From assembly GCA_024235715.1 (NCBI GenBank), contig JACKLW010000006.1:248001-312000 (forward strand): a stretch of DNA of 64,000 nt, in the 5' to 3' direction. Positions 704 through 16,288 of the stretch are shown here, one piece after another. The notes beneath the pieces were generated by a model. It made no database searches and was not told the origin of the DNA. It worked only from the letters and a program-made list of their open reading frames with translations. The position numbers and the translations under genes are program-made. Source of the stretch: Accumulibacter sp. GTDB lineage: Bacteria; Pseudomonadota; Gammaproteobacteria; Burkholderiales; Rhodocyclaceae. How positions within the stretch are numbered: position 1 is the stretch's first letter; each line of letters begins with the position of its first letter.

Positions 704-1021
704 TCAGCGCTTCTCGCCACGGCCAGAAAGGGACGGCAGCGTTGGCAGCGCCTGACCGTTTTCGAGCTGGTAGATCCATGCGAGCAGTTCGGCGACCGCC
801 AGATACAGCTGTGGTGGGATGTGCCGATCGAGGTCAACCTGCATCAGCAGCGATACCAGCTCGGCCGATTCATGCACATAGACGCCGTTTTCGTGTGCGC
901 GGGCGATGATCTGTTCGGCCAGCAGGCCCCGCCCCTTGGCGACCACCCGCGGCGCGGCGTCGGTCTGACTGTAGGCCAGGGCGACGGCGTTCTTCAGCGT
1001 TTCATCCGCGCTTCTTGCCAT
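704..1021 (-). CDS. FhlB-like protein: free-standing FlhB C-terminal (export switch) domain
   Basis: This 105-residue soluble protein matches only the cytoplasmic domain of FlhB/YscU and has no membrane segments. The recognisable stretch runs from AVALAYSQTDAAPRVVAKG to the segment around PPQLYLAVAELLAWIYQLE. In full FlhB an NPTH autocleavage motif lies just before the corresponding region; it is absent here. Such short homologues (FhlB/FlhX) are common beside fliK in Proteobacteria and can partly replace the FlhB C-domain in export substrate switching. Here fliK lies about 14 kb away on the same strand, with a sugar-modification island in between, so an ancestral fliK-fhlB pair may have been split. 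The start has no strong Shine-Dalgarno. Confidence 0.8.
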   Translation of the reverse strand: MARSADETLKNAVALAYSQTDAAPRVVAKGRGLLAEQIIARAHENGVYVHESAELVSLLMQVDLDRHIPPQLYLAVAELLAWIYQLENGQALPTLPSLSGRGEKR

Positions 1022-1371: not shown

Positions 1372-2484
1372 ATGACAGAAAAGCCAACATTCCTTACCCG
1401 GCCCTATCTGCCGCCGTTGGAAGAGTTCCTGCCCTATCTGGCCGAGATCTGGGAAAGCGGCCAGCTTACCAACGGCGGACCGTTTCATCAGCAGTTCGAG
1501 GAGGCGCTCAGGGAGTACCTGGGCGTGCCCTACGTTTCCCTGTTTGCCAACGGCACACTGGCGCTGATGACTGCCTTGCAGGCGCTGCGGGTGACCGGCG
1601 AGGTGATCACCACCCCCTACACTTTTGCCGCGACGACGCACGCGCTGCTGTGGAACGGTATCAAGCCCGTTTTCGTCGACATTCGCGGCGATACCTGCAA
1701 CCTTGACGAGGACCTTGTCGAGGCGGCCATTACCCCACGGACCACCGCCATCCTGCCCGTTCACTGCTACGGAAATCCCTGCACCAGCCAGCGCTTGCAG
1801 CAAATCGCCGATACCTACGGACTGAAGCTGATCTACGATGCGGCGCACGCCTTCGGGGTCAGCATCGGTGGGCATTCGCTGCTCGAGCATGGCGACCTGG
1901 CGATGCTCAGCTTCCACGCAACGAAAGTCTTCAATACTTTCGAGGGCGGTGCGATCATCGGCCACGACCTGAAGATCAAGCAACGTCTCGACTACCTCAA
2001 GAATTTTGGTTTTGCCGACGAAGTCACCGTCGTTGCCCCGGGGATCAACGGCAAGATGAACGAATTCCAGGCGGCCCTGGGCCTGCTGCAACTGAGACAC
2101 GTCGACCAGGCCATTGCGGCGCGCTGCGCCATCGACCAACGATACCGCATGGCGCTGGCCGAGGTTCCAGGGCTGCAGTGCCTGAGCATTGCCGACGGCG
2201 TCAAGCCAAATTGCGGCTATTTTCCCGTGCTGGTCGGTGCCGACTTTCCGCTGTCTCGCGACCAGCTTTACGACGAATTTCGCCGCCACGACATCCACGT
2301 TCGTCGCTACTTCTTTCCGCTGATCAGCAATCTCCCGATGTACCGAGGATTTGCTTCAGCAGCCCCCGCGAATCTGCCGGTGGCGACCGGTATCGCCAAG
2401 CGTGTCCTTTGCCTGCCGATCTACCCTGATCTCGACGTCGACACCGTCGATCGGATCATCGAGATCATTCTCTCAATCCACTGA
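1372..2484 (+). CDS. DegT/DnrJ/EryC1/StrS aminotransferase, VioA-like
   Basis: This 370-residue PLP enzyme should transaminate a nucleotide-linked keto-sugar. The family signature is clear: TNGGPF near the N-terminus, ANGTLALMTALQAL, TPYTFAATTHALLWN, the cofactor aspartate in LIYDAAHAFGV, and the Schiff-base lysine in SFHATKVFNTFEGG. The opening and the TNGGPFHQQFEEAL segment resemble the VioA branch, which makes dTDP-4-amino-4,6-dideoxyglucose; that substrate is inference. I start at 1372 because GGAAG lies five bases upstream and the residues after it begin the family alignment; an upstream in-frame ATG at 1321 adds unrelated sequence. No rmlA/rmlB-type supply genes are in the window. It leads a plus-strand set with the ACP and SDR genes. 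Confidence 0.87.
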   Translation: MTEKPTFLTRPYLPPLEEFLPYLAEIWESGQLTNGGPFHQQFEEALREYLGVPYVSLFANGTLALMTALQALRVTGEVITTPYTFAATTHALLWNGIKPVFVDIRGDTCNLDEDLVEAAITPRTTAILPVHCYGNPCTSQRLQQIADTYGLKLIYDAAHAFGVSIGGHSLLEHGDLAMLSFHATKVFNTFEGGAIIGHDLKIKQRLDYLKNFGFADEVTVVAPGINGKMNEFQAALGLLQLRHVDQAIAARCAIDQRYRMALAEVPGLQCLSIADGVKPNCGYFPVLVGADFPLSRDQLYDEFRRHDIHVRRYFFPLISNLPMYRGFASAAPANLPVATGIAKRVLCLPIYPDLDVDTVDRIIEIILSIH

Positions 2485-2507
2485 GCCAAACCTTGCGATT
2501 GCCACCC

Positions 2508-2747
2508 ATGAACGAACTCCTTGAACTGATTGCCACGGCCCTGAAGCTGCCAAAGAGTGACATTGACGCGCAGACGTCGATGAAATCCAGTGCTGCGTGG
2601 GATTCGCTGGCACACATGGAACTGGTGATAAGTATCGAGGACCACTACCAGATTGTTCTCGATGGTGATCAGATCGCGGACATGACTTCGGTGGCTGCCA
2701 TCGTCCACCAGTTGCAGAGCATGGGAGTGGTGCACGATGAAGCTTGA
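2508..2747 (+). CDS. Free-standing acyl/aminoacyl carrier protein
   Basis: A 79-residue acidic carrier protein. The phosphopantetheine attachment serine is in WDSLAHMELV, the standard DSL motif preceding helix II. It lies 23 bases after the aminotransferase and overlaps the next reductase gene by 11 bases, which suggests translational coupling. A single adenylation-domain protein lies just beyond on the opposite strand, so the likely job is to carry an activated amino acid or acyl group destined for an amino sugar, rather than fatty-acid synthesis; this is inference. The ATG at 2508 is preferred over a TTG fifteen bases upstream. It needs a phosphopantetheinyl transferase from elsewhere. Confidence 0.85.
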   Translation: MNELLELIATALKLPKSDIDAQTSMKSSAAWDSLAHMELVISIEDHYQIVLDGDQIADMTSVAAIVHQLQSMGVVHDEA

Positions 2748-3480
2748 TGGGGCAGTCGCCGTTGTGACCGGGGCGGCGCAGAATATCGGTCGTGGCATTG
2801 CCCTGGCTCTCGCTGCCGCTGGCTGCAGAGTGGCCGCCCTGGATCTCAACGAGGAACTGCTCGCTGATCTGGGCAGCGACCAGATCAGCGTCTTTCCGTG
2901 CGATGCCGCCGATCCGGAGCGGGCGGCGGCTGTGGTCCAGGCAGTCATGGCGGAGTTCGGGCGCATCGACGTGCTGGTCAACGCGGCCGGCTGGATCTGC
3001 AGTGCGCCGCTCTACAACCTGCTCGGCAGAACCGCTGGTCGTCACGATCTTGCTGTCTGGGAAAAGACCTTGCGCTCGAATCTGACGACGGCTCTGGTAA
3101 TGGGTTCGTGCGTGGTGGAGCAGATGATGCGCCAGCGCACGCGTGGCGTGATCATCAACATCAGTTCCGTCGCCGCCCGTGGCAATGCCGGACAGAGTGC
3201 CTACGCGGCAGCCAAGGCCGGCTGCAATGCGCTGGCGATGACCTGGGCAAAGGAACTGGGTGGTTTTGGCATTCGTGCGCTGGCGATCGCGCCGGGTTTC
3301 ATCGACACACCTTCGACGCACAGCGCGATGAGCGAGGAACGTCTCAAGGACTGGGTCGGCAAGACGGCGTTGCGTCGCCTGGGGACTGCGCCCGAGGTTG
3401 CTCGAACGGTCATCTTTGCCGTCGAGAACGACTACCTGACAGGAACCGTCATCGAACTGGACGGTGGCCTGAAACTGTAA
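2737..3480 (+). CDS. Short-chain dehydrogenase/reductase, FabG-like
   Basis: This 247-residue classical SDR has the cofactor glycine motif in VVTGAAQNIGRGIA, the NAAG motif, the catalytic serine in NISSVAARG and the YxxxK pair in SAYAAAKAG. It also has the usual C-terminal LTGTVIELDGGLKL. The family reduces 3-ketoacyl-ACP or sugar/alcohol carbonyls with NAD(P)H. Its start sits inside the carrier-protein gene, 11 bases before that gene's stop, with GGGAG upstream, so the two are almost certainly co-translated. That pairing suggests a substrate tethered to the carrier protein, but a sugar substrate is equally possible. It ends the plus-strand set and faces the adenylation-domain gene. Confidence 0.85.
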   Translation: MKLDGAVAVVTGAAQNIGRGIALALAAAGCRVAALDLNEELLADLGSDQISVFPCDAADPERAAAVVQAVMAEFGRIDVLVNAAGWICSAPLYNLLGRTAGRHDLAVWEKTLRSNLTTALVMGSCVVEQMMRQRTRGVIINISSVAARGNAGQSAYAAAKAGCNALAMTWAKELGGFGIRALAIAPGFIDTPSTHSAMSEERLKDWVGKTALRRLGTAPEVARTVIFAVENDYLTGTVIELDGGLKL

Positions 3481-3498
3481 GGCGGCACGGCGCACGCA

Positions 3499-5049
3499 CT
3501 AGCGCGCGCGCAGTTGCTGCGCCAGTGCCAGGCGGTCGACCTTTCCGTTGGCGTTGCTGGGCAACTCGGCCAGCACTTCGACCTGTCCCGGGATCATGTA
3601 GGCGGGCAGGCTATTCCTGAGAGAATCCCGGATGGCCGCAGCAGTGGTGGGTTCGCTTGCGCTGACGAAGGCGACGATCTGCCCGTGTTGCTCCCGGACG
3701 CGCTGATAGATGGCGACCGCCCGCGTCACCTGCGGCAGCGCGTGCATGGCAGCCTCGATTTCTTCCAGTTCGATGCGGTAGCCGAGATGCTTGATCTGGT
3801 TGTCGGTCCGGCCAAGGAAGCAGAGCAATCCCTGCTCATCACGTCGAACCAGATCGCCCGTCCGGTACATCCGTTCGTGGAAAGGCGCGCATAGCGGATT
3901 GGCAACGAAACTGCGGGCCGTACGTTCCGGGTCATTGTAGTAGGCGATCGCCAGTTGCGGGCCAAGCAGGCACAGTTCGCCGATGCCGTCCGTGGCCGGA
4001 GTGAGATCGTCGCTGACCAGGAGGTAGTCGAAATTGGCCGCCAGTCTGCCCAAGGGTGCGAGGCTGCGTGGATCAGCGAAGTCCGATTCCGTCAGCGTGT
4101 ACGCGGAACAGATGCAGGTGCACTCCGTGGGACCGTAGACGTTGACCAGCCGTGCCCGCGGATGAAAGAGGTCGAACAGGCGTTTTAATTCCTTCTTGGG
4201 GTAGGCCTCGCCGCCAAAAATCAGGCAACGGATCCGGGGCCACGTTTCCGGCCGAAGCTGGCGCATGGTGATCAGATAGATCAGCAACGAAGGGACCGAG
4301 AACCACAGCGTGCAGCCGAGTTCATCGACGCGCCGTACCAGGTCAGCCGCGGAGGCGACGACATCCCGCGCCAGTGGGGCCAGGGCGGCACCGTTGAACA
4401 GGGCCGCGTAGAAGTCGAATACCGAATTGTCGAAATGCACGGGGTTGACGTTGCTCAGGACGTCAAGCGGAGTGATTGCGAACTCGTCACCCGCCCACTG
4501 GACAAGATTGAGAACGCTGGCATGCGAGATGGCGACGCCCTTTGGCGTTCCGGTCGAACCGGAGGTGAACATCAGGTAGGCCGGGTCGCTGCCGATCGCT
4601 TCGTCGTGGTCGCCAGGGAGTTCGGCCGGGTGTCGTGCCAGGATGGCTGGCTCGGGAAGCCTCAGCAGTGACTTGCCGTATGTCTGGCAGCAAAGCAGGA
4701 TTTCTTCGGGCAGGGAGTGATCGCTGACCACGAGACGTGGCTGGCAGGTCGAAAGAATCTTCCCGAGGCGTCGTGCAGGGTTCTGGTCGTCGAGATTGAC
4801 GTAGGCTGCGCCCAGCTTCAGGGCGGCCAGCATCAGCGCAAAGCCCTCCATCGACTTGCCGTTGAACAGCGCCAGGACGTCGCGACGACGCAGTCCTTGC
4901 GCCTTCAGCCAGTTGGCCAACTGGCTGGCGCAGCGATCCAGTTCGCCGTATGACACCGACTGCCCAGGGCCGATCGCCAGCGCTGGTCGCCGGGCATGGA
5001 TTGCGGCAATGTGCTCAAAGGCCCGGCCGAGATTGCAGTGGTAAGCCAT
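3499..5049 (-). CDS. Single amino-acid adenylation domain (NRPS/DltA-like AMP ligase)
   Basis: A 516-residue AMP-forming enzyme with the complete set of adenylation core motifs. They are A3 YLMFTSGSTGTPKG (about 158-171), A5 NVYGPTE (303-309), A7 YRTGDL (395-400), A8 with GRTDNQIKHLGYRIE (413-427) and A10 NANGKVDR with the catalytic lysine (499-506). The A4 segment reads HFDNSVFD; the aspartate there normally holds the alpha-amino group, so an amino acid rather than a fatty acid is the likely substrate. No condensation, carrier or thioesterase domain is attached, so the separate carrier protein at 2508 is its obvious partner. An alternative in-frame ATG at 5073 would add eight residues; neither start has a strong ribosome site. 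Confidence 0.88.
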   Translation of the reverse strand: MAYHCNLGRAFEHIAAIHARRPALAIGPGQSVSYGELDRCASQLANWLKAQGLRRRDVLALFNGKSMEGFALMLAALKLGAAYVNLDDQNPARRLGKILSTCQPRLVVSDHSLPEEILLCCQTYGKSLLRLPEPAILARHPAELPGDHDEAIGSDPAYLMFTSGSTGTPKGVAISHASVLNLVQWAGDEFAITPLDVLSNVNPVHFDNSVFDFYAALFNGAALAPLARDVVASAADLVRRVDELGCTLWFSVPSLLIYLITMRQLRPETWPRIRCLIFGGEAYPKKELKRLFDLFHPRARLVNVYGPTECTCICSAYTLTESDFADPRSLAPLGRLAANFDYLLVSDDLTPATDGIGELCLLGPQLAIAYYNDPERTARSFVANPLCAPFHERMYRTGDLVRRDEQGLLCFLGRTDNQIKHLGYRIELEEIEAAMHALPQVTRAVAIYQRVREQHGQIVAFVSASEPTTAAAIRDSLRNSLPAYMIPGQVEVLAELPSNANGKVDRLALAQQLRAR

Positions 5050-5125
5050 CGTCGCCAGGCTCAGAGGTGGCATGCCGGTCGAGCGCGCGATCGATGCATT
5101 GCGCCGTTCTCTTGCGCAGGCATCG

Positions 5126-6223
5126 TCATCGAGGCTCGTGCTGCCACTGGACAAAAAGCGCCTTGCCGCACACGAAGGCTCTCGCGATCCGCTTGCCTTG
5201 CTCGCGCAGCAAGTCGTTGCCGACCCGGTAGGGGCCGTCACCATGTGCCCAGATGTAGTCGTCGAGAATCAGCCAGGACCCTGGCAGCATCCTGCCGAGC
5301 CAGAGCCGGCAATCCTTCCCGACCAGATCATGGTCGTGATTTCCGTCGATATGGATGGCTGCGATCTGTCCCGAATAGGCGACCTTGCTGCTTGCCGAGT
5401 AGGTCCGCGCACTGTCCTGGGCGTACACGGCAAAAGCCTCTTCCGACGGCAGGCGAAGATGGGAGTGGTCGTCGGCGCGCAGCGGGACCATGTTTACAAA
5501 AAAGCCTTCGCGCATGACCTCGAAATCCCATTCGTCGACCAGCGTCTGCAGGGCTTGCGGCGATCGCCGTTGCACCGCGTTGTCGGCCCTCCAGGGATCG
5601 ATCGTCAGTACCGGCCCGACGCGATATCGCCAGGCCAGGTAAAGCAGTACGAAGGCCGATCTGCCCATCAGCGCACCGATTTCGATGACATCTCCCGGCG
5701 GCGCGCTGGCCATGATCCCCATCATCGCGGCCAGTTTGTCGTCGTTCGATTCGCCGTAAATTTGCGACGCTTGCCGCAGTATGCCGGCTACCTCGAGCAG
5801 CGACAGGCAGGGGACGGGGCCCGCGCAATGTTCCACAAGCGGCAACAAGCGCCTTGCCCGGGCCATCAGACGACGATGTTGCTCGACCTGTTGCCGGATC
5901 GGCGACTGGCCGATCAGCTCGATCGCGAGATTTTGGGAGTCAATGAAGCGCGCCATGAAATCATGCACGCTCGCGACCGGGCAGAACAAGCGTCCGACCG
6001 ACTGGGCGGCCGCCAGCGCGAGGAAGGTCTCCGAGAACTGTTCGTCGTAGATCGGCGGCAGCCGATGCAGGTCGTCGCGTACACCAGCAATCTCGCCGTC
6101 CGTCACGGAAGCAGCGCAGATCGTCTCTTCTCCGCGCGCGCGCGCCGCCGTCACATACGCCTCTGCGGCTTCGTTTACCGCCGGGAACACCAGTGTTGCG
6201 CGAGCGGTCTGCGCATCGCCCAT
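5126..6223 (-). CDS. Class I SAM methyltransferase with an N-terminal pre-ATP-grasp-like domain
   Basis: The C-terminal half (about residues 150-360) is a Methyltransf_24/CmcI-type fold. GDVIEIGALMGRSAFVLLY is the SAM-binding loop, followed by TIDPW and the acidic segment IHIDGNHDHDLVGKD and WLILDDYIW. The first 110 residues do not belong to that fold. The opening TLVFPAVNEAAEAYVTAARARG and later LIGQSPIRQQVEQHRRL resemble the pre-ATP-grasp domain of carbamoyl-phosphate-synthase-like ligases, but no ATP-grasp domain follows. It lies on the minus strand between the adenylation gene and another methyltransferase, 13 bases downstream of the latter. The acceptor is unknown; a sugar or carrier-bound acyl group is plausible. 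Confidence 0.72.
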   Translation of the reverse strand: MGDAQTARATLVFPAVNEAAEAYVTAARARGEETICAASVTDGEIAGVRDDLHRLPPIYDEQFSETFLALAAAQSVGRLFCPVASVHDFMARFIDSQNLAIELIGQSPIRQQVEQHRRLMARARRLLPLVEHCAGPVPCLSLLEVAGILRQASQIYGESNDDKLAAMMGIMASAPPGDVIEIGALMGRSAFVLLYLAWRYRVGPVLTIDPWRADNAVQRRSPQALQTLVDEWDFEVMREGFFVNMVPLRADDHSHLRLPSEEAFAVYAQDSARTYSASSKVAYSGQIAAIHIDGNHDHDLVGKDCRLWLGRMLPGSWLILDDYIWAHGDGPYRVGNDLLREQGKRIARAFVCGKALFVQWQHEPR

Positions 6224-6236
6224 GGTTCGAGGGTCC

Positions 6237-7253
6237 TCAGTCCGTCAGTCCGATGTCTCGCCTGGCGGCTTGACGAACCGCCTCGTCCAGCCACTGGTGC
6301 ATGCTCTTGCCCGTCCTGGCCTGCGCCTCATGAGCCAGTCGCTTGGCCTCTGGCGTGACCCCCTCGAGTTGGCCATGGTAGCGAGTGCGGTGCGTCCCCC
6401 CCCGTGCACCCGGGATCGGGAAGTCCAGGTCGGCGACCGGTTCGCCTTCGCCGACCACGAAGTCGAAGACATAGAATACGCCGCCGATGATCCACTCGAG
6501 GCGCGTCTTGCGTGCTTCGATGGGCAGCTTGTCCAGGGGCAGGGGATAGACGAATTCGGGGTTGGAATTCATCAGGATCTTGCCGAAATCGGTATCTCGC
6601 AGCCACGGCGGCATGCTCTCGTCGCCAACCACCACCTTGCCCCCGGGCCGTGTGACCCGAGCCATTTCGCGAAAGGCGCGCCTGACATCGCCGAAGGCGT
6701 TGATTCCGCCAAAATGGAAGCAGGCATCGAAGCTGTTGTCGGCAAATGGCAGGAAATAGCCGTTGGCCAGCGCCGGTTCGATGCGCGCGCGCGCAGCACG
6801 CATTCGCTCGACATTCCTGGCCAGAAACGACGGCGACAGATCCTGGATATAGAGTCGACCGTCAGGCCCCAGGCGGCGCGCGATGATCTCCGAGTCCCGG
6901 CCTGTCCCCGCACCCGTTTCGAGTACGGTCGAGTCCGGGCGCAGGTCGAGCTTGTCGATCATTGCGTTGCGCACGGTCTGTTCGTCTTCACCATAGGTGC
7001 TGAAGGTCAACGGCAGGTAACGATCGTAGGCGTCGGCGCGCTGCTCGTATTGCTGCAGCGCCGCCCGATCAAGTGAAGGCAGCTCGAAGGGGTAGACCAG
7101 ATTCGGCAGCCCGTCGTGAATCTCGAAGCGGTGACCGGAGGGGCTCGACAGCACGCCGCTGACGATTTCATCGCCGTCGCGAACCGCCTCCGACAGCGTC
7201 AGAGACTCCAGCGTCGCTGGATCAATGTAGAAGTCCTCTTCTCCTGTGCGCAT
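6237..7253 (-). CDS. SAM methyltransferase with degenerate Trm112-like N-terminus and RHH-like tail
   Basis: This is a 338-residue protein. The central part (about residues 90-230) is a Methyltransf_11 fold with VLETGAGTGRDSEIIARRLG, the acidic loop in LYIQDLSPSFL, and ANGYFLPFADNSFDACFHF. The first 50 residues follow the Trm112/YcaR zinc-ribbon pattern (GHRFEIHDGLPNLVYP) but the zinc cysteines are missing. The last 40 residues (AKRLAHEAQARTGKSMHQWL...) look like a ribbon-helix-helix segment. I start at 7253 because GGGAAG lies about five bases upstream. It is the first gene of a minus-strand group with the next methyltransferase. Substrate unknown; island context suggests glycan methylation. 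Confidence 0.72.
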   Translation of the reverse strand: MRTGEEDFYIDPATLESLTLSEAVRDGDEIVSGVLSSPSGHRFEIHDGLPNLVYPFELPSLDRAALQQYEQRADAYDRYLPLTFSTYGEDEQTVRNAMIDKLDLRPDSTVLETGAGTGRDSEIIARRLGPDGRLYIQDLSPSFLARNVERMRAARARIEPALANGYFLPFADNSFDACFHFGGINAFGDVRRAFREMARVTRPGGKVVVGDESMPPWLRDTDFGKILMNSNPEFVYPLPLDKLPIEARKTRLEWIIGGVFYVFDFVVGEGEPVADLDFPIPGARGGTHRTRYHGQLEGVTPEAKRLAHEAQARTGKSMHQWLDEAVRQAARRDIGLTD

Positions 7254-7599
7254 GCGTCTTCCCAAAGGGCAATGGTGAACCGTGCGAAGGCCATTGTCGC
7301 CGCCGGTCAAGCCGGCGTGAGCGAGGCGGTCTGAAGTCGTCATTGTAGTGCCAGCGAGCAAGCGACGGGGACGATGACCGAAACGGCGACGGAGCGATGT
7401 CGCGAGCGGCCCGGTGCCTGGCGTCATTATCCCGCTCTCGCGCGAAGACATCGTCGGTGTCGGGCGGAGAGGAGGTACACTCTCTGGCAGAAAGTCGCGG
7501 GTAGCAGGCCGTGGATGATTGTCCTGCAGAGCAATCGGCCGACGCGACATCCTCGCTGGAGGATCCGGTCGGCAGCGACAAGGGAAAAGGAGACGAACG
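7254..7599. other. Divergent intergenic region inside the glycan island
   Basis: These 346 bases lie between a methyltransferase on the minus strand and the NeuD-like gene on the plus strand, so both promoters should be here. No supported coding frame was seen; several in-frame ATGs upstream of either gene read as unrelated arginine- and proline-rich sequence. I could not assign promoter boxes with confidence. Confidence 0.45.
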
Positions 7600-8313
7600 A
7601 TGAAGACAGTGATCATTTTCGGGCTGGGCAAGATCGCCGATGTCGCCTACCAGCACATCGTCCGCGACCGCGCGTACGAGGTGGTGGCGTTTACCTGCGA
7701 TGCCGAGTGGTTGCCAAAAGGTGACCAGGGCAGCACGTTTTACGGCCGTCCGGTCGTTCCTTTCGAAGAAATCGAACGCCTTTATCCACCCGAGTCGGTA
7801 TCCATGTTCGTGGCTATCGGTTATCACGACCTCAACGCCGTCCGGGCGGCGAAATGTGACGCGGCCAAGGCAAAGGGCTATCGCTTGATCAGCTACGTCA
7901 GCCCCAGGGCCGACCATGGCCCCTGGCTGGATGTCGGGGAAAACTGCCTGATCCTTGACAGCGTCGGGATTCAGCCCGGCGTACGGATCGGCAACAACGT
8001 ATCGCTGTGGAACAACGCGCTCGTCGGCCACCATTCGATTGTCGATGATCATTGCTGGATAGCGGCCGGCGCAACGCTCGGTGGCGGGGTGACCCTGGGC
8101 GCGCGTTCGTTCGTGGGGCTTAACGCCACGATTGGCGGGGAGTTGTCGATCGGAGCGGCATCTTTCCTGGGAGCAGCCAGTCTGGTCCTCAAGAGTGCAC
8201 CGCCACGCAGCGTTTTCATCGCACCAGGCACGGAGAAGTTCCGGCTGGACAGCAACGCCTTTCTGCGCATGACCAGGATGCCGGCCCTCGGAAGCGCGAC
8301 CAGTAAGGGGTGA
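7600..8313 (+). CDS. NeuD/PglD-like sugar acyltransferase, left-handed beta-helix
   Basis: A 237-residue protein. The N-terminus (VIIFGLGKIADVAYQHI) is the small Rossmann-like domain typical of NeuD/PglD sugar O/N-acyltransferases. From about residue 110 on it carries hexapeptide repeats of a left-handed beta-helix, with a likely catalytic histidine in NALVGHHSIVDDHCWIAAG. Such enzymes transfer acetyl or other acyl groups to amino or hydroxyl groups of nucleotide sugars. The ATG at 7600 follows AGGAG at ideal spacing. It leads a plus-strand operon with the propeller protein and FkbM genes, four bases and an overlap apart. It could acylate the amino sugar made by the aminotransferase at 1372; the donor is unknown. 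Confidence 0.82.
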   Translation: MKTVIIFGLGKIADVAYQHIVRDRAYEVVAFTCDAEWLPKGDQGSTFYGRPVVPFEEIERLYPPESVSMFVAIGYHDLNAVRAAKCDAAKAKGYRLISYVSPRADHGPWLDVGENCLILDSVGIQPGVRIGNNVSLWNNALVGHHSIVDDHCWIAAGATLGGGVTLGARSFVGLNATIGGELSIGAASFLGAASLVLKSAPPRSVFIAPGTEKFRLDSNAFLRMTRMPALGSATSKG

Positions 8314-8317
8314 CCGG

Positions 8318-9298
8318 ATGTTCTCCTGGAAGAAGCTTGGCAATATCTTCAATCCGACCCTGAGCCGGCCCAGGGCGTGGATGAACGAGTTCGCACAGTG
8401 TCCGACGCCTTTCATCCTCAACGACCAGGTGCTCCGCGTGTACGTCGCCTGCCGGCCGCAGCGCGGAACGGACCTCCAGTACGTCTCGTATCCCGGCTAC
8501 GTTGATCTGGCGCGTGCCGATCTGTCGCGTGTCGAGGGCGTTTCCGCGACGCCGCTTATGCCACTTGGCAATCCCGGCGCTTTCGACGAGTTCGGGATCA
8601 TGCCGAGCAGCATTGTGAAGAAGGGCGATGATGTGTGCGCCTATTACTCGGGCTGGACGCGGATGCGGTCGGTTCCCTACACCTTGGCCATCGGCATGGC
8701 GGTCAGCCGCGATGGGGGAACGACGTTCACCAAAGCCGGCGAAGGCCCCGTTCTCGGCTTGAGCCTGAGCGAACCCTACTTCGTCACCGGTCCCGTCGTG
8801 CGCCTGATCGGCGAGCAATGGCATATGTGGTACCTGACGGGGAGGAAGTGGTTGTTCGAGGACGGAAAACACGAACCGGTGTACCAGATCGCGCGCGCCA
8901 CGTCGAGCGACGGGATAAGGTGGACTCGCGACGGCCTGCCGGTCATCCCGACGCTGGCGGAAGATGAGTGCCAGGATATCTTCTCGCCATTCTTTCTGGG
9001 CGGCAAATGGCATGCAATCTTCGCATGGCGCAGACCTTCGGCGGCCGCCGGAAACTATCGTCTGGGCTATGCGTCGTCCGACGATCTGGAGAACTGGGTT
9101 CGTGACGACTCGCAGGTGGGGATTGAGCTTTCCGAGACGGGATGGGATTCCCGGATGATGTGTTACCCGCAGGTGATCGAAGTGGATGGCCGCGTGCTGA
9201 TGTTCTACTGCGGCAACGACTTCGGTCGTGAGGGTTTCGGTATCGCCGAGCTAAGCACGTATTCGGAAGTGCCGCGGCAAGCGGGTCTCGGACGGTGA
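8318..9298 (+). CDS. Five-bladed beta-propeller, glycosidase-like protein (copy 1)
   Basis: A 326-residue protein without signal peptide. The repeated pattern of SRDGGTTFTKAGEGPVL, SSDGIRWTRDG and SSDDLENWVRDD, each followed by short beta-rich stretches, is that of the five-bladed propellers of the GH43/GH32/GH130 superfamily. Homologues of this size occur in polysaccharide gene clusters with no assigned activity. A paralogue lies at 10360-11352 on the other strand: both share the opening (KKLGNIFNPT / RKLGKIFDPT) and closing (CYPQVIEVDGR / CYPHVFELDGR) blocks. Its start has GGGG(T)G upstream and lies four bases after the NeuD-like gene. A cytoplasmic role on an intermediate, or glycan binding, is more likely than secretion. 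Confidence 0.68.
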   Translation: MFSWKKLGNIFNPTLSRPRAWMNEFAQCPTPFILNDQVLRVYVACRPQRGTDLQYVSYPGYVDLARADLSRVEGVSATPLMPLGNPGAFDEFGIMPSSIVKKGDDVCAYYSGWTRMRSVPYTLAIGMAVSRDGGTTFTKAGEGPVLGLSLSEPYFVTGPVVRLIGEQWHMWYLTGRKWLFEDGKHEPVYQIARATSSDGIRWTRDGLPVIPTLAEDECQDIFSPFFLGGKWHAIFAWRRPSAAAGNYRLGYASSDDLENWVRDDSQVGIELSETGWDSRMMCYPQVIEVDGRVLMFYCGNDFGREGFGIAELSTYSEVPRQAGLGR

Positions 9299-10401
9299 GG
9301 GTGATCGAGCGCATCGTCGCGGAGGAAAACGGGCAGCGCGCCCTGCTGACCCGGCTCCGCGATTCCGGAGAGCCAGTGGTCATCTACGGGGCCGGCGTTT
9401 ACGCCTATGTCCTGAAACGCTTCCTGGCAGCCAATGGAATCCCGGTCGCGGCGGTGATGGTGGACCCCGCCCATCGCTCGGATGACCACTTGTTGGATTC
9501 GACAGTGAGCACGACGGAAGAAGTCGCCGCCCGCCTGCGCGACTGCCATGTGATCGTGGGCATCGTGAACTACCCGGCATTCGTCACCAGAGCGGTCAAG
9601 CTGGGCGCGCGGGAAGTCCACGTGGTCGACGTTCCGGATTACCTGAACATGCCCGCAGCGTTCATGGATCGGGCGTTCGTGGAGGAAAACGGCGAGCAGT
9701 TCGACCAAGCCGCCGGATTGTTCGCCGATGAACTGTCCAGAGAAACCTATATCGCGGCGATCAACACCAAGATCAACGAGAATCTGGCCTACATCAGGCC
9801 TTACGTTCGCCTCGACAGGCTTTATTTTCCTGCGGCGGAGGTTCCTCTGCGGAAAGACGAGGTGTTGCTCGATGTCGGTGGGTTTACCGGTGATACCGTT
9901 CGCGAGTTTCACGAAATCAGCCACGGTCGCTACGCGCGCATAATATCGCTTGAGCCTGGCGAGGAAAACTTCGCAAAGCTGAAGTCGACGATCGACACCC
10001 TGTGTCTTTCCCGGGTCGTTGCCCTCAGGGTCGGTGCCTGGGACGAAAAAGCGACGCTCCGGTTTGCAACCAAGGATATGCACATCGACAACCAGATCTC
10101 GAAAGACGGTGTCGGACAGATCGAGGTGGACACCATCGATTCGATTCTCGGCAAGCTCGAAAGCAAGGTGACCCTGATGAAGCTGGACATCAACGGTGCC
10201 GAGTATCGAGCCATTTGCGGCGCGCGTGCCACCATACAGACGCATCTGCCTAAAGTTGTGCTCAGGCTGCATACGAAAGAGGACTTCTTTCGCCTGCCGA
10301 TCCTGCTGAAGGAACTGGCTCCCGATATGAAGCTGTATCTCAGACAGCGCAACTTCATGTCAATGATGCTGGTCCTGTATGGTGTCTTCCATTCCGTCTA
10401 G
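9295..10401 (+). CDS. FkbM-family methyltransferase with an N-terminal Rossmann-like extension
   Basis: This 368-residue protein starts with GTG in a GTGA overlap with the propeller gene. The C-terminal part is an FkbM methyltransferase: DVGGFTGDTVREF for SAM binding, IISLEPGEENFAKL, VDTIDSIL, and KLDINGAEYRAICGA. The first 120 residues (VVIYGAGVYAYVLKRFLAANG and later VIVGIVNYPAF) form a separate small Rossmann-like domain of the kind often seen in front of FkbM domains in surface-polysaccharide loci. FkbM enzymes O-methylate sugars or polyketides. Its last 42 bases overlap the end of the convergent second propeller gene. Sugar methylation of the flagellin glycan is inferred from context. 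Confidence 0.8.
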   Translation: MRVIERIVAEENGQRALLTRLRDSGEPVVIYGAGVYAYVLKRFLAANGIPVAAVMVDPAHRSDDHLLDSTVSTTEEVAARLRDCHVIVGIVNYPAFVTRAVKLGAREVHVVDVPDYLNMPAAFMDRAFVEENGEQFDQAAGLFADELSRETYIAAINTKINENLAYIRPYVRLDRLYFPAAEVPLRKDEVLLDVGGFTGDTVREFHEISHGRYARIISLEPGEENFAKLKSTIDTLCLSRVVALRVGAWDEKATLRFATKDMHIDNQISKDGVGQIEVDTIDSILGKLESKVTLMKLDINGAEYRAICGARATIQTHLPKVVLRLHTKEDFFRLPILLKELAPDMKLYLRQRNFMSMMLVLYGVFHSV

Positions 10402-11352
10402 AATCGCCAGTCCGAAGCCGTGGCGGCCGAACTCGTTGCCGTTGTACAGCATGTAGATCCGGCCATCGAGTTCGAACACGTGTGGATAGCACTGCATTTC
10501 CGAATCCCAGTCGTTCTCGCTGCGATCGAAGCGGATCTGTTCATCGTCCCGCGTCCAGACCACGAGGTCATCGGAGTGCGCGTGGCCGATGCGGTAGCCT
10601 CTGTCTCTGTTGTCCCGGAAGTCGTGTGCTTGACGATAACAGAAGAACATGTGCTGTCGTCCCGCAATGCTCGTCGTTGTGGGCAGGGCCTGGCACTCAT
10701 CGGCGCCGAGGCGTGCAGGGATGACCTTCTTCCCTTCCTCCTTGAGCCAGTGTATCCCGTCACTCGAAACGGCGTGCCCGATCCTGTAGATGCGCTCCAG
10801 AGGCGTTCCAGCCGCAAGTCGCTTCCAGCCGGCACCAAAGATGTACCACATGTGAAACATGTCGTGATGCACCTGGACGAACGGGTCGGCAATCAGGCAT
10901 GGCTCGCGCAGCGATGCGGAAAGAACTGGCCCATCACCCAGTCGCTGGAAGGTGAAGCCGCCGTCGCGGCTTATGGCGAGGCCGATCGAACTGTCCACGG
11001 GAACGGACATTCGTCTATTTACGCCACTGGTGTAGCCGTAAATCAGATCGCCGTGGCGAAGGACATTCATCGGAAAGATCCCGTGCTCGTCAAAGCATCC
11101 GGTCTTCCCGAGTTCGATGACCGTATGCCGCGATACCGCAATCACCTCGCGAAAGTCCTTTCGCATATCGACGAAGGCAATATGGCTCAGGTACTCTCCG
11201 CCGTGCGCATCACGGGAGCGGGTGGAGAAATAGATTCGTACGAAGTCGTCGAAGACGAGCGCCTGCGGTGACTGGGCGAACTCGCTGCAGCCAGCGGGCA
11301 GCCTGTATTGTGTCGGGTCGAAGATCTTCCCGAGTTTGCGCCAGTGTGTCAT
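10360..11352 (-). CDS. Five-bladed beta-propeller, glycosidase-like protein (copy 2)
   Basis: A 330-residue paralogue of the protein at 8318. Blade motifs include SRDGGFTFQRLGDGPVL, SSDGIHWLKEEGK and SDDLVVWTRDDEQ; the end has GRHGFGLAIL where copy 1 has GREGFGIAEL. The two copies lie on opposite strands with the FkbM gene between them, so they are not a simple tandem duplication. GAGG lies about five bases before the ATG. The gene follows wbqC on the minus strand after a 66-base gap. No signal peptide is visible. A pair of different propellers may act on two different sugars of one glycan, but no activity can be read from the sequence. Confidence 0.68.
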   Translation of the reverse strand: MTHWRKLGKIFDPTQYRLPAGCSEFAQSPQALVFDDFVRIYFSTRSRDAHGGEYLSHIAFVDMRKDFREVIAVSRHTVIELGKTGCFDEHGIFPMNVLRHGDLIYGYTSGVNRRMSVPVDSSIGLAISRDGGFTFQRLGDGPVLSASLREPCLIADPFVQVHHDMFHMWYIFGAGWKRLAAGTPLERIYRIGHAVSSDGIHWLKEEGKKVIPARLGADECQALPTTTSIAGRQHMFFCYRQAHDFRDNRDRGYRIGHAHSDDLVVWTRDDEQIRFDRSENDWDSEMQCYPHVFELDGRIYMLYNGNEFGRHGFGLAILDGMEDTIQDQHH

Positions 11353-11418
11353 GCGGCCTCAATTTTCGCGGCTGTCGACGAACAGGAATGGTTCATCGCG
11401 GCAGCCTGCCTCCGGTCC

Positions 11419-12120
11419 TCACAGCACTTCGTGGTTCGAGTTCAGGAAATGGCCGATCTTGCGTACGCTATTGAACATCATGACGTCGATGATCGAAAGG
11501 GAAGGGACGAATGGCTTGTCCATTTGCGGGTAGAGGCAGGGGAGCGTTCTCAGGAACTGCAGCTGGATGTTCCTGAGCATGAAATCTTCCCGGGAGTAAA
11601 GGGTCACGCCGCCGATTGGATTGATGTAGTGGCTGGCGGCAGCGTGCTCGCAAATCGCCAGAACCTTGTCTTGTCCTCGGAGCGCGTGGTCGATCGGGAT
11701 GGCCGACGATGTCGCGAAATCGGTGTCGACCTGCAGGTACTCGCAGACGCTGATGATCGAGTGGTACAGGAAGCGAAACAGATTGTCGTCGTCATGCCGC
11801 AGAACCGTCTCGACGATCGGGAAGGCTTCAGCGAAATACGGTGCGCGGCGGTAAGCGTCCGAGATCTGATTGAGCAGTCTTTCTCTCCGGAAGTCGGCAG
11901 CCAGTCGCCGGTCGCGGATATCGAGAAAGTCCGAGTCCTTCTTCAAGGGGATGGAAATCAAGGCTTCCTTCCCCTGTCGCAGAATGCGATTTCTGTTGAT
12001 CCAGCCCTTCTTGGAATACTGGATATTGTCGTAGATCACGAAGGTGTCGACCGCCCTGATCAGTTGAAAATAACCAATGTAGGGGAAAAAATAGGGCTGC
12101 ATGATCGCCAGTTTTTTCAT
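11419..12120 (-). CDS. WbqC family protein
   Basis: A 233-residue protein with the WbqC-family opening AIMQPYFFPYIGYFQLI followed by DTFVIYDNIQYSKKGWINRN and a conserved IPLKK segment. WbqC proteins are found in O-antigen and other glycan loci, commonly next to DegT-type aminotransferase genes, and are thought to modify the amino sugar; the chemistry is not something I can state. Codon usage is visibly more AT-rich than in the flanking flagellar genes, which fits horizontal acquisition of the island core. It lies between the OGT-like gene (upstream on the same strand) and propeller copy 2 (downstream). Confidence 0.85.
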   Translation of the reverse strand: MKKLAIMQPYFFPYIGYFQLIRAVDTFVIYDNIQYSKKGWINRNRILRQGKEALISIPLKKDSDFLDIRDRRLAADFRRERLLNQISDAYRRAPYFAEAFPIVETVLRHDDDNLFRFLYHSIISVCEYLQVDTDFATSSAIPIDHALRGQDKVLAICEHAAASHYINPIGGVTLYSREDFMLRNIQLQFLRTLPCLYPQMDKPFVPSLSIIDVMMFNSVRKIGHFLNSNHEVL

Positions 12121-12204
12121 CGCGGGCTGATCCCTGCAGCCGCTACAGGCACGCGTTTTTCGGCAACGGATCAGTGCTGCCGTGATGCCTGTCTTCCGGC
12201 GTGC

Positions 12205-15156
12205 TCATGGCTCCGCCGAGGCTGCTCGATCTGGCAAGTCCTGCGCGCGCACTTCAAACGCCGCCGCTGGCAACTGCTTGCACCATCGCTGCCACATGAT
12301 GCGCAGGGCCCGCGACAGTCCGTTCGCGACCAGCTCTGGCTGACCCATGCCGGACTGCTGCAAGCGCGCGCGCAGCTCGGTTCGCAGCGTGGCCAGGCGT
12401 GTGAGCTCGTTCGACCACGATACGCCTCGGGCGACGAATTCTGCGGGCGTGTGAGTGACGAACTCTTCGAGTGCGACATGGCCGAGGATCGCGGCGCCCG
12501 ATCGACCGGGAACCGTCTCGCCGACGAGTGTCAGCGTTGGGACACCCATCCACAAGGCGTTCAGCGTCGTCGTGCCGCCGGTATACGGAAAGGTATCCAG
12601 GCAAATGTCCACCTGTTGATGCAGTTGCAGATAGGTTTGCACCTCACAGCGCAGATGCAGGCTCAAGCGGTCTCGGCTGATGCCGTGGCGCGCAAACTCG
12701 TCGATCAATTGCTGGCAGGCCGGGTCAGGTCGCATGGAGCCGAGCAGCATTCGCGAGCCGGGCAGGGCTCTCAGAAGTTCCGACCACAGGGCGATGACCG
12801 AGGCACTGATCTTGGTCGGGCGGTTGAAGCTGCCAAAGGTGAGCTGTCCCTGAGCGAGAGCCGGCAGGGCGTTGACCGGCGGTGCATCGGCGAATGGCTG
12901 GAAGGGCGCGCCGACCGGAATGCGGGCGATCTTCTCGGTGAACTGTTCGTCGAACTTGCCAACCGGCAAGAAGAAGCGATCGGCGAGATAGTAGTCCATG
13001 GCGTGCAGGCCGGTGGTCCCCGGGTAGCCCATCCAGCTCGCCTGCAAGGGAGCGGGCTTGTGAGCAAACGTCAGTAGTCGATGGTGGCCGGTATGGCCGC
13101 TCAGGTCGATCAGGATGTCGATGCCATCGGCGCGGATCGTTTCCGCGAGTGCGGCGTCGGAAGTCCCTGCGACGGCGTGCCAGTGCGCGACGAGCTTGCG
13201 CAGTCGCTGCGTTACTTCGTCTTCCGTGGCGTAGGTCGAGTAGGCGTGTATTGACAGCTGTCGGTCTGTTGCCAGTTCTGCCAGCACCGGTTCGATGAAG
13301 CTGGCCACGGCGTGATTGCGGAAGTCGGCCGAAACAAGGCCGACGCGCAGGCAGCGGTCGGGATCTGTGGAATTGTCATGCGGCGCCCAGTGGCTCAGCA
13401 GTGGCGTTTCAAACTGCTCGGCGAAACGACGGTGTTCGGCAAACAGTGTGCGCGCGTCGACCTTTTCGTTGTGCGTGAGACAGAAGAGGAGATTGCTATG
13501 TGCCAGGGGGTAGTCGGGGTCCAGTGCCAGCGCGTGCCGATAGGCTTGCTCGGCTTCGGCGTAGCGAGCCAGTTCGGCGAGGGTGACGGCCAGATTCAGG
13601 TAGGCGCTGGCGAGTTCGGGTCTGAGTTCCAACGCGCGGCGGTAGCTCGCTTCGGCTTCGCTGTGCCGTTCCTGGTCGCGCAGGATATTGCCGAGGTTGT
13701 AGTGCCCTTCGGCGAGAGCGGGCGTCGTCAGCAAGGCACGGCGCAAAGTGCTTTCGGCCTCGCTGTCCCGTCCTCCCCGCGCTCGCAGCGTCGCACTCAA
13801 AGCGACCAGCGCTTCGGCGAAGTCCGGACGGCACGCCAACGCCCGCCGCAGATGGCTTTCGGCCTCGGCGAACCGGCCTTGTTCGGCGAGTGCTGAACCG
13901 AGGGCGAGCAGCGCTTCGGGAAAGTGCGCCTTCAAGTCCAGCGCATTGCGCCAGGCGATCTCGGCTTCGCTGCCTCGGCCGAGGTCGCCGAGCGTAGTGC
14001 CCAGGTTGTAGAGCGCCTCGGCGAAGTCCGGGCGGCATTCGAGCGCCCGACGCAAGGCACTCTCCGCTTCCCCCGGTCTGTCCAGTCCTCTCAGGGTATC
14101 GCCAAGGTTGTTGTGTGCCTCGGCCAGATCCGGTGCCAGCTCCAGCGTGCGCCGGTAGGCGACTTCAGCTTCGGCCAGGCGGCCCTGGTTCATGAGGACG
14201 TTGCCGAGGTTGAAATGTGCCGAGGCAAAGTCGGGTTTCAGAGCCGCCGCGCGGCGATAGCTGGCTTCAGCTTCTTTGGGCCGTCCCTGGGAGCAGAGGA
14301 CATTGCCGAGGTTGTAGTGGGCTTCCGCGAAATCGGGCCTGATGCGCAGGGCTTTCCGCTGACAGGTTTCCGCCGCCGCGAGTTCACCTCGATCCACGAG
14401 GATCAGGCCAAGGTTGCTCTGCACCTGTTCGTCGCGTGGCAGCAGCCGAGAGGCGTGCCGCATCGCCGGTAGCGCTTCATCATCGCACCCCTGCGCCTTG
14501 AGCAGCGTTGCCAGCACTTTCCAGGCAAATCCATGGCGCGGAAAGCGCTCGGTCAGCGCGCGTGCGACGCTCTCGCCCTCACTGTAGCGCCCGGCGGTGA
14601 ACAGGGCCACCAGGGCGCGCTCTTCCTCGGCGGATGGTTTGCCGCTGTGCGCAGGCGGGACCTTCGCTGCAGCGCGCTTGCTTGCCTTGGGCTGCCGCGG
14701 CTCGCTGTGTTGCGGCGTCAGCTTGACCGGTTCTTCCTGGGCCAGGCGCAGTGCCAGGGCGTCCACGGCTTCCCCTTCCAGGCCATGCTGCCGGCCCAGT
14801 TCGAGCACCTGCCGTGCGGTCTCCGCCTGGCCTGCCAGCAGCAGTGCTTCCAGATAGCTCAGCCAGTATTGCCGCGACGCCGGGCTGGCTTCGAGCGCGG
14901 CGACGAGGTGCGGCAGGGCGGCGGCAGGCTGCTGCCGCTGGACCTCCAGAAGACCCAGGTGGTGGTTCGCCTCCGGATGATCTGCTTGCGCCTGCAGGAT
15001 TGCCCGATAGAGCTGCTCAGCCGCGGCGAGCTGGCCGGCGCGGTGACATGCCAGCGCTTTTGCCAGCGCCTGGGAAAGCACCTCGTCGAGCGTCGGCGGG
15101 TGTTCGGCCGCTGCTGTGCCGCTTTCCTGCGACGAATCATTCGCTGATTCGGACAT
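12205..15156 (-). CDS. TPR-containing O-GlcNAc-transferase-type glycosyltransferase (GT41)
   Basis: This 983-residue protein couples a long TPR solenoid to a GT41 catalytic region. About ten consecutive 34-residue TPRs with the pattern RPDFAEALYNLG...EAE...YRRAL occupy roughly residues 240-590, with two or three weaker ones before. The catalytic half has LRVGLVSADFRNHAVA, DLSGHTGHHRL, a lysine-containing FGSFNRPTKISASVI and DTFPYTGGTTTLNALWMGVPTLTL, the nucleotide-sugar loop. Bacterial GT41 enzymes glycosylate Ser/Thr of cytoplasmic proteins, flagellins among them. It lies next to fliK-fliC and its ATG overlaps the fliK stop by 20 bases, so flagellin is the best-supported target. AGGAAG precedes this ATG; an in-frame ATG at 15183 is less likely. 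Confidence 0.87.
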   Translation of the reverse strand: MSESANDSSQESGTAAAEHPPTLDEVLSQALAKALACHRAGQLAAAEQLYRAILQAQADHPEANHHLGLLEVQRQQPAAALPHLVAALEASPASRQYWLSYLEALLLAGQAETARQVLELGRQHGLEGEAVDALALRLAQEEPVKLTPQHSEPRQPKASKRAAAKVPPAHSGKPSAEEERALVALFTAGRYSEGESVARALTERFPRHGFAWKVLATLLKAQGCDDEALPAMRHASRLLPRDEQVQSNLGLILVDRGELAAAETCQRKALRIRPDFAEAHYNLGNVLCSQGRPKEAEASYRRAAALKPDFASAHFNLGNVLMNQGRLAEAEVAYRRTLELAPDLAEAHNNLGDTLRGLDRPGEAESALRRALECRPDFAEALYNLGTTLGDLGRGSEAEIAWRNALDLKAHFPEALLALGSALAEQGRFAEAESHLRRALACRPDFAEALVALSATLRARGGRDSEAESTLRRALLTTPALAEGHYNLGNILRDQERHSEAEASYRRALELRPELASAYLNLAVTLAELARYAEAEQAYRHALALDPDYPLAHSNLLFCLTHNEKVDARTLFAEHRRFAEQFETPLLSHWAPHDNSTDPDRCLRVGLVSADFRNHAVASFIEPVLAELATDRQLSIHAYSTYATEDEVTQRLRKLVAHWHAVAGTSDAALAETIRADGIDILIDLSGHTGHHRLLTFAHKPAPLQASWMGYPGTTGLHAMDYYLADRFFLPVGKFDEQFTEKIARIPVGAPFQPFADAPPVNALPALAQGQLTFGSFNRPTKISASVIALWSELLRALPGSRMLLGSMRPDPACQQLIDEFARHGISRDRLSLHLRCEVQTYLQLHQQVDICLDTFPYTGGTTTLNALWMGVPTLTLVGETVPGRSGAAILGHVALEEFVTHTPAEFVARGVSWSNELTRLATLRTELRARLQQSGMGQPELVANGLSRALRIMWQRWCKQLPAAAFEVRAQDLPDRAASAEP

Positions 15157-16288
15157 CGGTCTGGTCTTCCTGTGGGGCAGCAATGCCGAGTGACGTGAGG
15201 TCGAGGCCTGCGTTCTCCAGCTGGCTACGCAGGGTGGCCGTCTCGGTCCTCAAGAGCAGCCGCGTTGCCGCATCACTGGCGGTCATGGTCAGCGTCAGCT
15301 GCTGTCCATCGATGAGCAGTCGGGCGTCGACCTCGCCAAGTCTGGGAAGGACCAGACGAAGTCGCGTCTGCCACTTCTCGCCAGCATCATTATCGTCGCT
15401 TTCGCTGCCCTTGCCCTGCTTTTCGATTTCCCACTGGATTTGCTGACCGGGCCAGAGCTGTCCCTGCCAGGAAAAATTCTGGGTGGCGAAAGCTTCGAGT
15501 TGCTGCTGGACGAGCGCCTGGGTCTGCGCTGCGACTGGCTGGGCAACTTGCCCGGGCGCGGCCGCTTGAGCCGATTGGGCGACTCCCGCCTTGCTTGCTG
15601 CTTCGTTGCCGGTGTTTTGTGCCAGGGCGCCATCGGTGGCAGCGCGGGCCATGGTCGTTGCCGCGTTGCTGGCCGCGGGAGCATGTGCGGCGGTTGTCGC
15701 TGGCGCCAGCTTCCCTTGCGGCTCCTGCTGCAGCTGCACCTTGCTGTAGCGACCCTCGACCCATTCCGCCTGATGCGCTTCGTAAAACATGCCGCTCTGG
15801 ACGATCGCCTGCTTGAGTAGAGGTACCAGCGCCTGTGCGCTGCTCAGCGGGGCGGCCGCGATTGGCAGATTGCCGTTCAGCGGCAGAGGCGGTGCGCTCC
15901 CTTTGCCACCCTGCGTACTTGCCAGGAGGTTGCTGATCAGTTGCCCGGTTCGGCTCAAGCTGGTGGCGGCTGCTTCGCTGCCCGCCTTGCCACCTTCCGA
16001 CGTCGTCCGGGCAACCACGGCGAGAGTAAGCTTGCCGTTGCTCTCGGCGACCTCGAGTTCGATCACGTCACCGCTCTTGGCCGCGAAAGGCAGGGCGAGG
16101 GTCACGTTGCGCTGATTGATCAGCGCGCGGTAGGTGCCGTTGGGCATCAGCGACTGGATCTCGGCCAGCAACCGCTGTCCGGCGAACAGTCCGGGCAGCT
16201 TGTCGGCAATTTCCTGCGCCGGCGGAGCCGGCCGCAGGGCGAGGTCGGCCGATGGCTGGATGCGGGTGGCGACTTCCGGGCGGATCAT
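15137..16288 (-). CDS. fliK: Flagellar hook-length control protein FliK
   Basis: A 383-residue protein with the FliK plan: an N-terminal structured part, a low-complexity Ala/Gln-rich middle (around AAPGQVAQPVAAQTQAL), and a C-terminal hook-length domain. That domain has WPGQQIQWEIEKQG, the beta-rich LRLVLPRLGEVDARLLIDG and the helical end RLLLRTETATLRSQLENAG. FliK is secreted during hook assembly, measures hook length and signals the export switch through FlhB. It lies four bases after fliT in the filament-gene series. The usual neighbour, the fhlB-like gene, is displaced to 704-1021. Assigned from C-domain pattern and synteny. Confidence 0.85.
   Translation of the reverse strand: MIRPEVATRIQPSADLALRPAPPAQEIADKLPGLFAGQRLLAEIQSLMPNGTYRALINQRNVTLALPFAAKSGDVIELEVAESNGKLTLAVVARTTSEGGKAGSEAAATSLSRTGQLISNLLASTQGGKGSAPPLPLNGNLPIAAAPLSSAQALVPLLKQAIVQSGMFYEAHQAEWVEGRYSKVQLQQEPQGKLAPATTAAHAPAASNAATTMARAATDGALAQNTGNEAASKAGVAQSAQAAAPGQVAQPVAAQTQALVQQQLEAFATQNFSWQGQLWPGQQIQWEIEKQGKGSESDDNDAGEKWQTRLRLVLPRLGEVDARLLIDGQQLTLTMTASDAATRLLLRTETATLRSQLENAGLDLTSLGIAAPQEDQTDVRISE

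Follow-up and report, generated by a model that had tools for sequence, protein, structure and literature searches.

The 64,000-nucleotide stretch of DNA analysed here (the window, contig C6:248001-312000 of genome G000 of the wastewater bacterium Accumulibacter) contains 12 glycan-type genes, at 1372-15156, that lie between an fhlB-like gene and fliK. The initial annotation had described eleven such genes interrupting the flagellar block; the placement stands and the count becomes 12. Its account of fliC to fliK as contiguous, with the fhlB-like gene beyond the island, agrees with the gene coordinates, and the order beyond the island is fliK, fliT, fliS, fliD, flaG and fliC. Judging from gene content and neighbourhood, the island probably serves to glycosylate flagellin and occupies a variable position next to fliK. 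Systems of this kind are known, and what is new here is the conserved core of WbqC and propeller proteins and the predicted fold of WbqC. The features of the locus are as follows.

704..1021, minus strand: fhlB-like gene encoding an FlhB C-terminal domain and bounding the island on the left (PF01312, E 5.7e-18).
1372..2484, plus strand: DegT/DnrJ aminotransferase, DesI/VioA-like, proposed dTDP-4-amino-4,6-dideoxyglucose (Qui4N) synthase (PF01041, E 1e-99).
2508..2747, plus strand: acyl/aminoacyl carrier protein (ACP; PF00550, E 6e-9; Ser33 within a DSL motif).
2737..3480, plus strand: short-chain dehydrogenase/reductase (SDR), 3-oxoacyl-ACP-reductase-like (NF006072, 211 bits, below the cut-off of 298).
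3499..5058, minus strand: stand-alone adenylation protein of the nonribosomal peptide synthetase (NRPS) type, proposed carrier loader (PF00501, PF13193; TIGR01733, 352 bits, above the cut-off of 317).
5126..6223, minus strand: Methyltransf_24-type methyltransferase (PF13578, E 1e-12).
6237..7331, minus strand: Methyltransf_25/11-type methyltransferase (PF13649, E 2e-16).
7594..8313, plus strand: NeuD/PglB/VioB-type hexapeptide acyltransferase, proposed to N-acylate the amino sugar (PF00132; TIGR03570; 4ea7).
8318..9298, plus strand: propeller protein 1, paralogue of propeller 2 (PF00251, E 2e-6, 28.0 bits, cut-off 22.1).
9295..10401, plus strand: FkbM methyltransferase (PF05050, E 1.6e-12; TIGR01444, 60.1 bits, above the cut-off).
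10360..11352, minus strand: propeller protein 2, five-bladed beta-propeller with a GH130/GH43/GH32-like fold, proposed glycoside transferase/phosphorylase.
11419..12120, minus strand: member of the WbqC family, proposed to ligate an amino acid to the amino sugar (PF08889, 235.4 bits, cut-off 21.3).
12205..15156, minus strand: glycosyltransferase with tetratricopeptide repeats (TPR-GT41), proposed cytoplasmic flagellin O-glycosyltransferase (PF13844, E 4.5e-41, 141.1 bits, cut-off 25, plus TPR repeats).
15137..16288, minus strand: fliK, right border and start of the flagellar block (PF02120).
18943..20694, minus strand: fliC, flagellin of 584 residues, proposed acceptor (PF00669, PF00700).

Every island protein has a Pfam match above the whole-protein cut-off of its family, with the exception of propeller 2 (PF00251, 22.0 against 22.1 bits). 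Intergenic gaps within the island run from -42 to 84 nt, the carrier and SDR genes overlapping by 11 nt, except for 262 nt between the Methyltransf_25 and acyltransferase genes; fhlB and DegT are 350 nt apart. Chance or decay was rejected as an account of the island, as all 12 frames are open and Candidatus Accumulibacter adiacens (locus L050) shares the gene set and its order. The island genes of that organism are 85-91% identical to those of the window and its fhlB is 81% identical, its contig stopping inside the TPR part before fliK is reached; propeller 2 likewise finds its nearest named relative there (89%), in a search from which the window's own record was possibly absent. Base composition gave no clear signal of recent foreign DNA, with GC per kb of 0.57-0.67 in the island and 0.63-0.67 in the next 11 kb, the lowest values (0.57-0.58) falling at propeller 2 and WbqC. 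Promoter and terminator scans returned fewer hits than shuffled sequence (1 against a mean of 2.5, and 7 against 11.3) and were left unused.

The junction between fhlB and fliK was compared across 121 genomes of the family, where fliK was matched in 111 and fhlB/flhB in 112. The gap survey took in 109 fhlB genomes, excluding G047, G085 and G093, in which the sole match looked flhB-like, and 108 fliK genomes among the matches listed, where G015, G048 and G076 had no fliK row; eight extra pieces of genomes already entered were excluded. The gap measured -7 to 234 bp in 102 of the 104 genomes with both genes on one contig, bearing out the earlier statement that fhlB usually adjoins fliK, and the two outliers were the window (14,119 bp) and its congener G018 (93,310 bp). 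Both genes lie on separate contigs in G079, of the same genus, and in G041. The separation of fhlB and fliK is not chance, and none of the three Accumulibacter members sampled (the window, G018 and G079) has the two genes together.

What occupies the site varies. The 93-kb interval of G018 includes unrelated genes such as a hydrogenase and an RND pump (10 open frames were scanned), and since these are not glycan genes the separation there may have come about through rearrangement rather than simple insertion. In G079, fhlB has a subtilase gene as its neighbour and, further out, one for proline dehydrogenase, and the fliK flank is an open frame with three GT41 matches that are 68-71% identical to that of the window, one of them containing TGA; further from fliK lie an adenylation protein, a GT2/radical-SAM protein, a Methyltransf_24 homologue (31%) and a DegT protein (80%). 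The 14-kb island is thus one of several contents of the fliK-fhlB site, and the glycan genes flanking fliK differ among congeners. Two further observations concern the neighbours of fliK: the GT41-matching frame of G079, at L023:9026-17035, is one open frame of 2,669 residues adjoining fliK, and in G018 the neighbour at L030:9779-13798 (minus strand) encodes a protein of 1,340 residues that consists mostly of ALTTAQ repeats (PF20080, 36 stretches).

DegT, WbqC and the two propellers form a core module that recurs in other genomes. A genome-collection search with seven propeller queries found no fewer than 548 relatives. The top 80, ranked by similarity to propeller 2, serve as the loci here, so that counts among them are not a random sample, and they span at most 10 kb per side, many being cut by contig ends. 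Matching regions were present for propeller 1 in 77 of the loci, for WbqC in 78 and for DegT in 67, and all four core members occur together in 67 when scored with one best match per region, the DegT match reaching at least 250 bits in 63 of those. With simple gene calling, WbqC, propeller 1 and propeller 2 are consecutive on the same strand in 51 loci, and are accompanied by DegT in 37. Homologues of propeller 1 occur in 11 of the 121 family genomes.

Around this core the accompanying genes vary. A linked GNAT acetyltransferase/methyltransferase family is found in 59 of the 80 loci and starts less than 400 nt after propeller 2 in 46; its 96 members are mostly separate genes of about 150 and 250 residues, while nine are at least 397 residues long, and one scanned member is a 397-residue fusion of both domains. 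On Rhizobium plasmid pCC283b_3 the two are annotated as separate genes. Fourteen loci count as "big", carrying two or more of five window genes (Methyltransf_25, acyltransferase, ACP, SDR and adenylation), and the GNAT/methyltransferase family appears in just one of them, L079, which qualifies only through weak SDR and Methyltransf_25 matches. We read the GNAT/methyltransferase family and the carrier/adenylation set as apparently two interchangeable routes of acylation and methylation around one constant core. FkbM follows a further pattern, being present in all six big loci with a WbqC 54-91% identical to that of the window (L050, L051, L054, L076, L087 and L091) and absent from all seven in which WbqC is 30-33% identical (L052, L053, L056, L057, L059, L073 and L080), a comparison that omits L079 (WbqC 56%, no FkbM) and is drawn from related loci, some cut by contig ends. 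This suggests that FkbM methylates something dependent on WbqC.

The flagellar connection runs through TPR-GT41. Its gene overlaps the stop end of fliK by 20 nt and continues the flagellar strand, so that the same-strand run after fliK comprises TPR-GT41, WbqC and propeller 2, and this TPR-GT41-WbqC-propeller line recurs in two other Accumulibacter contigs. The protein contains His- and Lys-containing motifs of the sort that serve in catalysis in GT41 enzymes, and residues 151-490 of FliC contain 28% Ser plus Thr against 20% in the remainder. In Undibacterium umbellatum NL8W (L087) and U. pigrum DSM 19792 (L091) fliC is bordered by the island, and in Thiobacillus denitrificans RG (L064) by TPR-GT41 with the core module. 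Among the 80 loci, a flagellar gene accompanies 15 of the 24 with a strong GT41 match (at least 150 bits) and 3 of the 56 without (Fisher p ~1e-7, relatedness ignored). Tandem arrangements were also seen, with four TPR-GT41 matches in series in L054.

Several observations weigh against a dedicated flagellin cassette. Nine of the strong-GT41 loci show no flagellar gene, core modules without strong GT41 are commoner (56 of 80), and flagellar genes appear in just 18 of the 80 loci; big loci are only weakly tied to flagella (6 of 14 against 12 of 66, p 0.07, Fisher, relatedness ignored). Of the 10 other propeller genomes in the family, 5 show flagellar genes in the stretches taken, which were longer where fliK was known to be nearby, and neither of the two other congeners gave a propeller 1 match. 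The core module also occurs in loci without flagellar genes and in records named Flavobacterium, Ferruginibacter, Omnitrophota, Gottesmanbacteria and others, some of them from groups usually without flagella, and the families recurring near it include GT2 transferases, a Polysacc_synt (Wzx-like) protein and a GtrA-like protein. These last observations would suit an O-antigen or exopolysaccharide side cluster that lies beside fliK by happenstance, its sugar going to a surface polysaccharide and its GT41 having another target. We consider this unlikely, as TPR-GT41 has a soluble, protein-modifying layout, overlaps fliK and co-occurs with flagellar genes, and no Pfam match to a flippase, O-antigen polymerase or O-antigen ligase was found among the twelve island proteins. 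Since strong GT41 tracks flagellar genes, the larger island does so weakly and many core modules have no flagellar gene nearby, GT41, rather than the sugar module, carries the flagellar link. The core module is found away from flagellar genes, and we therefore prefer to read it as a general amino-sugar module that is tied to flagellin in the window. The earlier suggestion that GT41 could modify flagellin is partly supported, by its context (the fliK overlap, the co-occurrence and the flanking of fliC), although the core module is also found away from flagella.

The chemistry of the island supports the earlier proposal of a decorated amino sugar, through a DesI-type aminotransferase and the presence of rmlA and rmlB in the genome. 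Among solved structures and NCBIfam models DegT lies nearest the DesI type: its best solved relative is 2po3 (226.7 bits, the next at 143.2), which we take to be DesI, and its best NCBIfam model is PLP_DesI, the match to the DesI equivalog TIGR04427 staying below the cut-off (280.2 bits against 650). The acyltransferase scores just below the cut-off of TIGR03570 (150.3 against 160.8 bits) and matches the perosamine N-acetyltransferase 4ea7 at E 1.8e-11. The adenylation protein contains its family motifs, and its pocket motifs are identical in all 10 aligned sequences (the window and nine homologues), from which a single dedicated substrate is likely. Its specificity code, read by eye as D N F S I G V C I plus the usual Lys, fits no nameable substrate; the retained Asp would, by a rule that we assume holds here, suggest an alpha-amino acid.

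A route can be proposed from these parts. RmlA and RmlB would supply dTDP-4-keto-6-deoxyglucose, which the DesI-like DegT would convert to dTDP-Qui4N. The adenylation protein would load a dedicated amino or acyl group onto the carrier, for possible reduction by the SDR, and amide formation on the 4-amino group would fall to the VioB-like acyltransferase, the BshC-fold WbqC or both. The three methyltransferases would then O- or N-methylate the product, and the two propellers would act downstream of WbqC, perhaps transferring the finished sugar. The TPR part of TPR-GT41 would bind flagellin, with Ser/Thr modified in the cytoplasm before export. Gene content, open frames, the line from fliK through GT41 and WbqC to the propeller, and the recurrence of the core module are read directly from sequence, and folds are predicted.

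The role given to WbqC in this route draws on its predicted fold, for which the top match is BshC, with 226 of 233 residues aligned. The case is weakened by Foldseek alone placing BshC at E 0.016 and by the WbqC profile finding no BshC sequence, even at E 10. WbqC might instead be no ligase but a class I synthetase-like superfamily member with a structural, binding or nucleotidyl-transferring role, which is possible, although we lean against it given the extent of the BshC alignment and the common adjacency of WbqC to DegT among the places examined. This adjacency was counted over the best 30 of 58 listed WbqC places, among them the window itself, which has no DegT match within 1.5 kb. We presume a link between WbqC and N-acetylglycyl Qui4N in Shigella/E. 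coli O121, which was not found in the open-licence literature, and WbqC goes unnamed in the open-licence papers matched on vioA, O-antigen and Qui4N; open-licence papers matched on WbqC itself mostly concern other subjects. The family is termed functionally uncharacterized in the accessible text of PMC5532660. Matches to PF08889 also occur among 14 control genomes, in Caulobacter vibrioides and Bacteroides ihuae.

The two propellers, 42% identical to each other, are predicted to adopt a five-bladed fold shared with the GH130/GT108 superfamily. Membership of GH130 was rejected, as PF04041 has no match anywhere in the genome, and the propeller profile aligns with GH130 only partially and with a blade shift (88.5% over 109 columns). 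No GT108-titled structure appears among the best 50 fold matches, and kinship with GT108 remains compatible with this. The propellers might instead be conventional glycoside hydrolases or phosphorylases that trim or recycle the glycan, and not transferases, a reading nearly as credible as its contrary: such enzymes make up nearly all of the best fold matches, and the homologues on the Rhizobium plasmid are publicly annotated as "glycosylase" and "hypothetical protein". Against this, the propellers sit in a biosynthetic module with WbqC and DegT, and propeller 2 has an invariant Asp88 that by eye coincides with the GH130 acid in blade 2, while its blade-1 motif has Gln, which argues against a GH32/43-type hydrolase, under mechanistic rules that we take as given. 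Beta-propellers go unmentioned among the best open-licence literature matches on propeller and flagellin topics. In Kiloniella spongiae (L129:9024-10942) two successive propeller regions both match propeller 2 best, and GT41, WbqC and flagellar matches lie on the same stretch.

Beyond the flagellin cassette, the core could be an undescribed, widespread amino-sugar module in which WbqC, as a minimal class-I-synthetase-like ligase, would aminoacylate the amine of dTDP-Qui4N, and the two propellers would belong to a new glycosyltransferase family with a GT108-related fold and pass the resulting sugar on, feeding flagellin with TPR-GT41 here and surface polysaccharide in non-flagellated bacteria; taken as a whole, we regard this as improbable. 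Flagellin glycosylation islands are well known, and what the present one adds is a recurring core with three non-DegT proteins of unassigned function. The predicted fold of WbqC offers a concrete candidate activity for an uncharacterised Pfam family, the propeller pair is a candidate new kind of transferase, and the exchange of GNAT/methyltransferase for carrier/adenylation genes suggests modular diversification of surface sugars. While Accumulibacter is hard to grow, the isolates of Undibacterium and Thiobacillus denitrificans RG permit testing.

BshC is the cysteine ligase of bacillithiol synthesis. WbqC resembles it in predicted fold, and by analogy an amino-sugar amine is proposed as the acceptor of WbqC; the two differ in length (233 against a BshC chain of 540 residues) and have no sequence match. 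The GH130/GT108 enzymes share the predicted five-bladed fold of the window propellers, although the genome lacks a PF04041 match, and GT108 enzymes are described in the accessible text of PMC8950772 as dual transferase-phosphorylases with a GH130-like fold. FlmG of Caulobacter crescentus has, like TPR-GT41, a TPR N-terminus and a glycosyltransferase C-terminus, and it glycosylates flagellin in the cytoplasm; as described in PMC7591256, it is 596 residues long, against about 983 for TPR-GT41, and moves pseudaminic acid, whereas no NeuB-type family was found in the window island. Flagellin islands of enterobacteria, as presented in the accessible part of PMC4875605, are variable and carry aminotransferases, methyltransferases, acyl carrier proteins and fatty acid CoA ligases; WbqC is not named there, and the words "hydrolase" and "adenylation" do not occur in the paper.

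Two Pseudomonas loci are also among the closest parallels: the P. syringae pv. tabaci 6605 viosamine island and the P. aeruginosa PAK glycosylation island. By the available text of PMC3927599, the tabaci island lies between glutamine synthase and histidine kinase genes, whereas the window island lies inside the flagellar block, and VioT is a glycosyltransferase of 1,173 residues, where GT41 is the sole Pfam glycosyltransferase family of the window island; GT41 or a propeller may do the work of VioT here. The window lacks a ketoacyl-ACP synthase III (KAS III, VioS), with no KAS family among the twelve proteins, and it alone has the adenylation protein, WbqC, the two propellers and TPR-GT41. That the exact gene set had not been described as a pathway, as the initial annotation supposed, is consistent with the open-licence literature, and many of its parts resemble the viosamine islands. 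The carrier (PF00550) and the 3-oxoacyl-ACP-reductase-like SDR correspond to the viosamine-island carrier and VioR-type SDR; in the text available for that system (PMC3927599), modified viosamine depends on vioR and its methyl group on vioM. A carrier, an SDR and a methyltransferase are common to both systems, and the DesI-like aminotransferase and the hexapeptide acyltransferase are candidate counterparts of VioA and VioB; in the pseudomonads this set serves flagellin (PMC3927599).

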